Of a stretch of DNA of 64,000 nucleotides, positions 8,895-9,493 are shown piece after piece. The position numbers and the translations under genes were made by a program. The notes beneath the pieces were generated by a model. That model saw only the letters and a program-made list of their open reading frames with translations, was not told where the DNA came from and did not search any database. The stretch comes from Thermoflexus hugenholtzii. GTDB lineage: Bacteria > Chloroflexota > Anaerolineae > Thermoflexales > Thermoflexaceae. Numbering within the stretch: position 1 is the stretch's first letter; each line of letters opens with the position of its first letter. The stretch covers positions 682,001-746,000 of the forward strand of contig NZ_CP076326.1 in the NCBI RefSeq assembly GCF_018771565.1, written 5' to 3'.

Positions 8895-9380
8895 TTATTC
8901 CGGTCTCAACCCGATTACCCAGATTGGGCATGGGAGGACACGTCGATAGGTTTCCAGATCCCGTTGAACCTTACTCAAATGAGGGAGATTCTTTCCTTTT
9001 ATACTATCATCATACACGATTTCTACCGCAACATCAATAACCTCAAGATTATAGGCAAGCAAAAATTTCAAAAAATCGTTATAACAATCAGATGGATCTG
9101 AAAGTTGTATTTCTATCGCAACCTTGCTCTTCTTAAGATCAAACTTTAGGTGTTTATGTTGAGGAGTAACGGGTTGCTGGCGTTGCCAGCCTTTCCGAGC
9201 GAGCAACTCTTCCAAAATTTGTGCAGGAGTTGGACGTGCTCCTCTTCCCAACTTCGTCTTACCTAAGGATAGCAGGTATTGTAGCTGCCTAATCGAATCT
9301 TCGATCTCATCTATAAATTCTGGAAAGTGTTGGCTCAATATGGTTTTTGCGAATTTGAAATCGTATTCTGAGTAACCCAT
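8895..9380 (-). CDS. BglII-like PD-(D/E)XK nuclease domain protein (orphan)
   Basis: A 161-residue protein from an ATG at 9380 preceded by GAGGTAGGAAA; an upstream ATG at 9425 would add 15 residues but has no clear ribosome site. Residues D81, E90 and Q92 lie in FDLKKSKVAIEIQLS, reproducing the D-x8-E-x-Q spacing of the BglII active site (Asp84, Glu93, Gln95). A preceding W-x4-P, a later VAVEIVYDD strand and a closing WVIGL strand also resemble BglII order. This resemblance is from memory, not a search. BglII-type enzymes cut DNA with Mg2+. No methyltransferase is visible within several kb, so it may be a solitary or domesticated nuclease or a homing-type enzyme. The gene is much richer in A+T than its neighbours, suggesting recent acquisition. 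Confidence 0.7.
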   Translation of the reverse strand: MGYSEYDFKFAKTILSQHFPEFIDEIEDSIRQLQYLLSLGKTKLGRGARPTPAQILEELLARKGWQRQQPVTPQHKHLKFDLKKSKVAIEIQLSDPSDCYNDFLKFLLAYNLEVIDVAVEIVYDDSIKGKNLPHLSKVQRDLETYRRVLPCPIWVIGLRPE

Positions 9381-9493
9381 TTTCCTACCTCGGGCATAAG
9401 AGTTCAGGCTGTTATTTCGGAACATCAGCGCTTAAAGACCGGTGGCTCCCGCATCGCCTCCTCCGCTCCTCCGCGTCTCTGGCCCTGCTTCAA

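Follow-up and report, generated by a model that had tools for sequence, protein, structure and literature searches.

A BglII/BstYI-family restriction endonuclease gene without a linked methyltransferase, kept by purifying selection in Thermoflexus hugenholtzii

Gene and composition of the locus

The window, the whole stretch of 64,000 nucleotides that we analysed, holds on its minus strand a gene for a putative restriction endonuclease, coincident with an AT-rich island. The features of the locus are as follows.

8895..9380, minus strand: coding sequence of 161 aa, predicted solitary BglII/BstYI-family restriction endonuclease (PF09195, structure model, dN/dS)
8895-8897, minus strand: stop codon of the 161-aa coding sequence
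9075..9101, minus strand: SDPSDCYND (residues 94-102), the subfamily segment that immediately follows the active site and stands where BstYI-type enzymes have GKY (alignment)
9105..9140, minus strand: active-site segment D81-LKKSKVAI-E90-I-Q92 (position from the translation; family alignment)
9381..9390, minus strand: Shine-Dalgarno-like stretch AGGTAGGAAA before the ATG at 9380 (sequence; conserved in the congener G004)
8950..9450, no strand: AT-rich island, 30-54% GC per 50 bases, coincident with the gene (composition)

The reading frame remains open upstream to an ATG at 9425, which would give a product of 176 aa. We accepted the 161-aa form that begins at 9380, since the Shine-Dalgarno-like stretch precedes this ATG and is kept in the sister species; the coordinates and strand first proposed for the gene are borne out. 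At 41.4% GC (GC3 38.5%), the gene differs as sharply from its surroundings of about 67% GC as had been claimed. Such a gene within a region of that composition was probably acquired horizontally. It lies outside any intron, intein or conserved gene.

Family and fold

The original prediction recognised a BglII-like enzyme by the spacing of D81, E90 and Q92, which reproduces the D-x8-E-x-Q arrangement of BglII. This pattern occurs once in the 161-residue protein. It also appears in 4.3% of shuffled versions of this sequence, so we rejected the pattern alone as proof of family, and it turns up in 3 of the 49 sizeable open reading frames of the window. Family identity is instead supported by the Pfam profile, a profile-profile match, the fold and residue conservation. 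The Pfam family PF09195 (Endonuc-BglII) matched with an E-value of 9.2e-18 and 64.9 bits against a cut-off of 26, over profile positions 2-162 of 163, and a profile-profile comparison against 13 BstYI-type proteins gave an E-value of 4e-14 over 149 columns. A search of the protein against NCBIfam returned no match, PADLOC reported a weak match to a Type II nuclease, and phmmer against PDB sequences found a single borderline match, to BstYI, over the active site.

A structure model built from four subfamily sequences alone reached a pLDDT of 43 and was discarded. With 18 viral BstYI-type homologues added, the model reached a pLDDT of 91.3 and a pTM of 0.89. The accepted model thus relies on an alignment with many BstYI-type sequences. 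It superposes with BstYI at Z 21.3 (1.8 Å over 151 residues), with BglII at Z 20.8 (1.8 Å over 146 residues) and with BamHI at Z 16.5, the next fold being far below at Z 5.9. Structure prediction, proposed at the outset as a check, has thus returned the BglII/BstYI/BamHI fold. Matches to Can2, PspGI, BspD6I, PaqCI and McrBC (Z 4-6) were set aside as general nuclease-fold likeness only. By profile and model, then, the gene encodes a restriction endonuclease core of the BglII/BstYI family, with predicted activity.

BglII (PDB 1d2i, 1es8; AGATCT) shares the fold and the D-x8-E-x-Q spacing, but the protein described here is a shorter, minimal core that lacks the C-terminal extension; the alignment ends at BglII residue 173 of 223. 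BstYI (PDB 1sdo, 2p0j, 1vrr; RGATCY) likewise has the same fold and the same active-site spacing at approximately 24% identity, but carries an insertion before the active-site strands that is missing here. BamHI and OkrAI (PDB 1bhm, 3odh) belong to the same fold group at Z ~16 and are more distant, with 14-22% identity over the superposed residues.

Active site and subfamily segment

The active-site residues are conserved among homologues, contrary to what would have spoken against the original prediction: D81 and E90 are invariant in 19 of 19 aligned family members and Q92 is found in 17 of 19, the two exceptions having E-x-W instead. The active site is also invariant in five subfamily members and in genome G646. 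Separately, at L077:672-1947 and L080:280-1601 we observed BglII-like nucleases with E-x-W that abut small DPPW methylases resembling the MT-A70 type.

Directly after the active site, LSDPSDCYND forms a hallmark of the subfamily, with LSDP and the residues following it standing in place of the FGKY of BstYI-type enzymes. In the BglII and BstYI complexes this segment contributes base contacts, and by analogy SDPSDCYND is likely to be the base-contact segment here. Because FGKY has been replaced, DNA specificity likely differs from that of BstYI-type enzymes and is common to the subfamily.

Selection on the gene

Between the host (G000) and its congener G004, the gene shows a dS of 0.25 and a dN of 0.05, giving a dN/dS of 0.21. 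Genes of the same region gave similar values (gltB, 0.16; thioredoxin, 0.21), and Fisher's exact test, with approximate site counts, spoke against neutrality at p ~2e-6. The ratio being close to that of neighbouring housekeeping genes, the gene is not decaying but is kept by purifying selection. Apart from approximately 120 additional bases that G004 has at the 3′ edge of the gene, the two genomes are collinear across it, which places the acquisition before their split.

These results bear on the possibility that the gene is a leftover, inactive or silent, from a restriction-modification system whose methylase was lost, a reading we consider unlikely. A homologue in Cloacimonadota adjoins a truncated methylase, the copy in genome G653 is truncated at its 5′ end, and the AT-rich composition of the host gene looks foreign, all of which would suit such a leftover. 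However, both the frame and the active site are intact in two species under a dN/dS of 0.21, intact copies occur in four more genomes from other phyla, and in G646 the composition of the gene matches its genome, as expected of an old resident. The suggestion of a decayed restriction gene is therefore contradicted by purifying selection, by the intact active site and by the intact homologues.

Homologues and distribution

Among 60 relatives, only the host and G004 carry the gene (89% identity); it is present in two of the nine genus members and absent from the seven others. More distant homologues were found in an Armatimonadetes MAG (L004, 69% identity), a Fimbriimonadales MAG (L005, 62%) and a Cloacimonadota MAG (L006, 59%), and a search of the phylum of L004 added G646 (64%) and the 5′-truncated copy of G653. 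Homologues of the solitary subfamily thus span three bacterial phyla, in a small sample of six intact members. A single origin of the subfamily has weak tree support (63/86), owing partly to the long E-x-W branch that joins it. Phages, plasmids and viral contigs were also searched, and no relative of this subfamily was found among them. At L113:1-1770, the truncated nuclease copy of G653 lies close to a gene resembling a phage portal protein.

The copies of L005, G646 and G653 each lie just upstream of gatA, separated from it by gatC in G646. The GC content of the G646 copy (63%) matches that of its locus (66%), and the gene is accordingly a long-standing solitary resident of that genome. The position is fixed only in these three Armatimonadota-group genomes; no neighbours are conserved between phyla, and from one host to another the gene occupies unrelated locations.

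A homing or otherwise selfish nuclease, or a DNA-repair enzyme with no part in defence, could also account for a single-gene insertion that is patchy among relatives and has no conserved neighbours between phyla. Such a role, raised in the original prediction, is very improbable. The host gene interrupts no intron, intein or conserved gene; a constant site upstream of gatA is confined to the Armatimonadota group; presence in two of nine genus members is too patchy for a core repair gene; and no fold of a repair or homing enzyme matches nearly as well as that of BglII/BstYI/BamHI.

Solitary state

The original prediction noted that there was no methyltransferase nearby, and this was confirmed: four DNA-methyltransferase Pfam families had no match within the window, and the closest one elsewhere in the genome lies approximately 580 kb away. 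By contrast with this gene, the BstYI-type genes in the genomes that we examined abut a methylase. At other family loci, a methyltransferase open reading frame abuts the nuclease in 36 of 39 cases, with gaps of -13 to 58 bases, and the remaining three are accounted for by a single degenerate copy and by a second lineage of solitary genes. None of the six intact subfamily members has an intact linked methylase. The locus accordingly lacks the linked, intact cognate methyltransferase of a classical Type II restriction-modification system.

In L006 the gene lies 12 bases after a 191-aa N6/N4 methylase (L006:3944-4519, directly upstream of the nuclease), which ends before motif I and covers profile positions 1-167 of 221. 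The nearest relatives of this methylase, found in viral contigs (57-74% identical, 260-276 aa), are complete, from which we conclude that the L006 methylase is a truncation. The methylase loci of the other carriers held no close relative of it.

Solitary restriction enzymes have been described before. Ershova et al. (2012; PMC3488263) surveyed 272 of them, defined by the lack of an intact methylase gene within 4 kb, as is the case here; 57 were assigned distant methylases, 99 were fragment-like and 116 were left unexplained. Separated systems, inactivity, sites missing from the host (as for PacI) and dependence on modification were discussed as explanations (PMC3488263). High identity to a known restriction enzyme does not ensure activity, as the example of HindVP illustrates, and BglII is not named in the main text of the survey (PMC3488263). 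Like the surveyed ones, our nuclease gene is intact and has no intact methylase gene linked to it. PacI, cited in the same survey, is also a nuclease without a methylase and its site is absent from its host, whereas we could connect our gene with no such absent site. Among the papers that we searched, none dealt with solitary BglII-type enzymes. What is new is the addition of the BglII fold, together with documented selection and a solitary subfamily present in three phyla.

Host sites and unlinked methylases

An intact restriction enzyme without its methylase is expected to be lethal. We counted potential sites in 464 kb of the 3.3-Mb host genome, and in samples of other genomes. The host sample contains 1840 RGATCY sites (approximately 4 per kb) and 115 AGATCT sites, so that, in contrast to the situation of BglII, the AGATCT site is common in a host with no linked methylase. 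The observed-to-expected ratio of GATC is 1.01 in the host and 1.00 in G004, showing no depletion. Dam-like (PF02086) and m5C (PF00145) methylases were sought in the host and none was found. Because the sites are abundant, GATC is undepleted and we found no methylase either linked to the gene or shared by all carriers, it is excluded that the host enzyme cuts BglII/BstYI (GATC-core) sites that are unmodified and unprotected.

One way to avoid self-damage would be a separated restriction-modification system, in which an ordinary Type II nuclease has its site methylated by a methyltransferase encoded elsewhere in the host. This arrangement was predicted for the 57 surveyed enzymes with distant methylases (PMC3488263), and the genome-wide search did recover unlinked methylases in the host: an MjaI-type m4C enzyme at 107 kb, a gamma N6A enzyme at 2.597 Mb, a permuted enzyme at 2.605 Mb and a Type IIG enzyme at 2.706 Mb. 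Two carriers, G481 (71%) and G646 (66%), have orthologues of the MjaI-type methylase that lack a neighbouring MjaI nuclease, which at first suggested separation. On the other hand, among the distant carriers only G481 has a close orthologue of the gamma methylase, and no methylase is common to all carriers. On the assembled sequence, the MjaI-type methylase was rejected as the protector: the host copy has a frameshift in motif IV (C8, where G004 has C7), and the G004 copy is accompanied by an intact nuclease of its own. Taken together, we regard a separated system as an alternative worth keeping in view, though a rather unlikely one.

The host MjaI-type system (L047:6190-7934, host ~107.2-108.9 kb) is broken on both sides, its nuclease having an in-frame deletion of approximately 65 residues that removes the catalytic part, while both genes are intact in G004; these lesions are as read from the assembly, where a sequence error is possible. 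At L034:997-2259, the C-terminus of the MjaI-type methylase of the genus weakly resembles staphylococcal nuclease (PF00565, E 0.007, below the cut-off).

No palindrome was depleted in step with the gene in the genomes sampled. GTAC stands at 4-17% of expectation in the host genus (G000, G004, G001, G005 and G008), with a similar value in G481; it was rejected as the site, since genus members lacking the gene are depleted of it too and carriers G482 and G646 are not. GTAC depletion goes with the gamma N6A methylase (2.597 Mb) and not with the BglII-like gene. CTAG was likewise rejected, as it is depleted in nearly every genome sampled.

Proposed role

On balance, and with modest confidence, we favour a stand-alone defence nuclease, horizontally acquired and selected, whose target does not occur unprotected in the host. 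Of the solitary defence nuclease put forward in the original prediction, the solitary state was confirmed and the reading gives the best fit, while the defence role is one that we infer. The gene would act as a single unit, probably acquired horizontally and held by selection with no linked methyltransferase. Its product would be a BglII/BstYI/BamHI-fold core with a metal-dependent D/E/Q active site, presumably a homodimer like its relatives, and would cut incoming DNA by acting alone. The host would escape damage because its own DNA holds no unprotected target: the enzyme may need a modified base, its site may be altered and rare, or its site may be methylated by an unlinked enzyme.

Many known restriction enzymes without a methylase are still unexplained. 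The value of this case lies in its minimal 161-residue core, its homologues in three phyla, the measured selection and a host rich in BglII/BstYI sites.

Among the ways in which a stand-alone defence nuclease could spare its host, we lean slightly towards dependence on DNA modification, for two reasons: the carriers have no methylase in common, and in G423, a distant lineage, a BglII-family gene has an SRA-HNH neighbour. A more specific version, in which the subfamily cuts only modified DNA in the manner of Type IIM or Type IV enzymes and the conserved DPSDCYND is the altered site reader, seems to us doubtful. We know of no modification-dependent member of the BglII/BstYI/BamHI fold group; an enzyme of this kind that did read a modified base would put the BglII fold to a new use. 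The G423 locus (L078:122-1373) carries a second, distant solitary BglII-family gene, 40 bases from the SAD/SRA-HNH gene and on the same strand. The SRA-HNH architecture is typical of modification-dependent enzymes, and the two genes could possibly form a two-nuclease modification-dependent unit.
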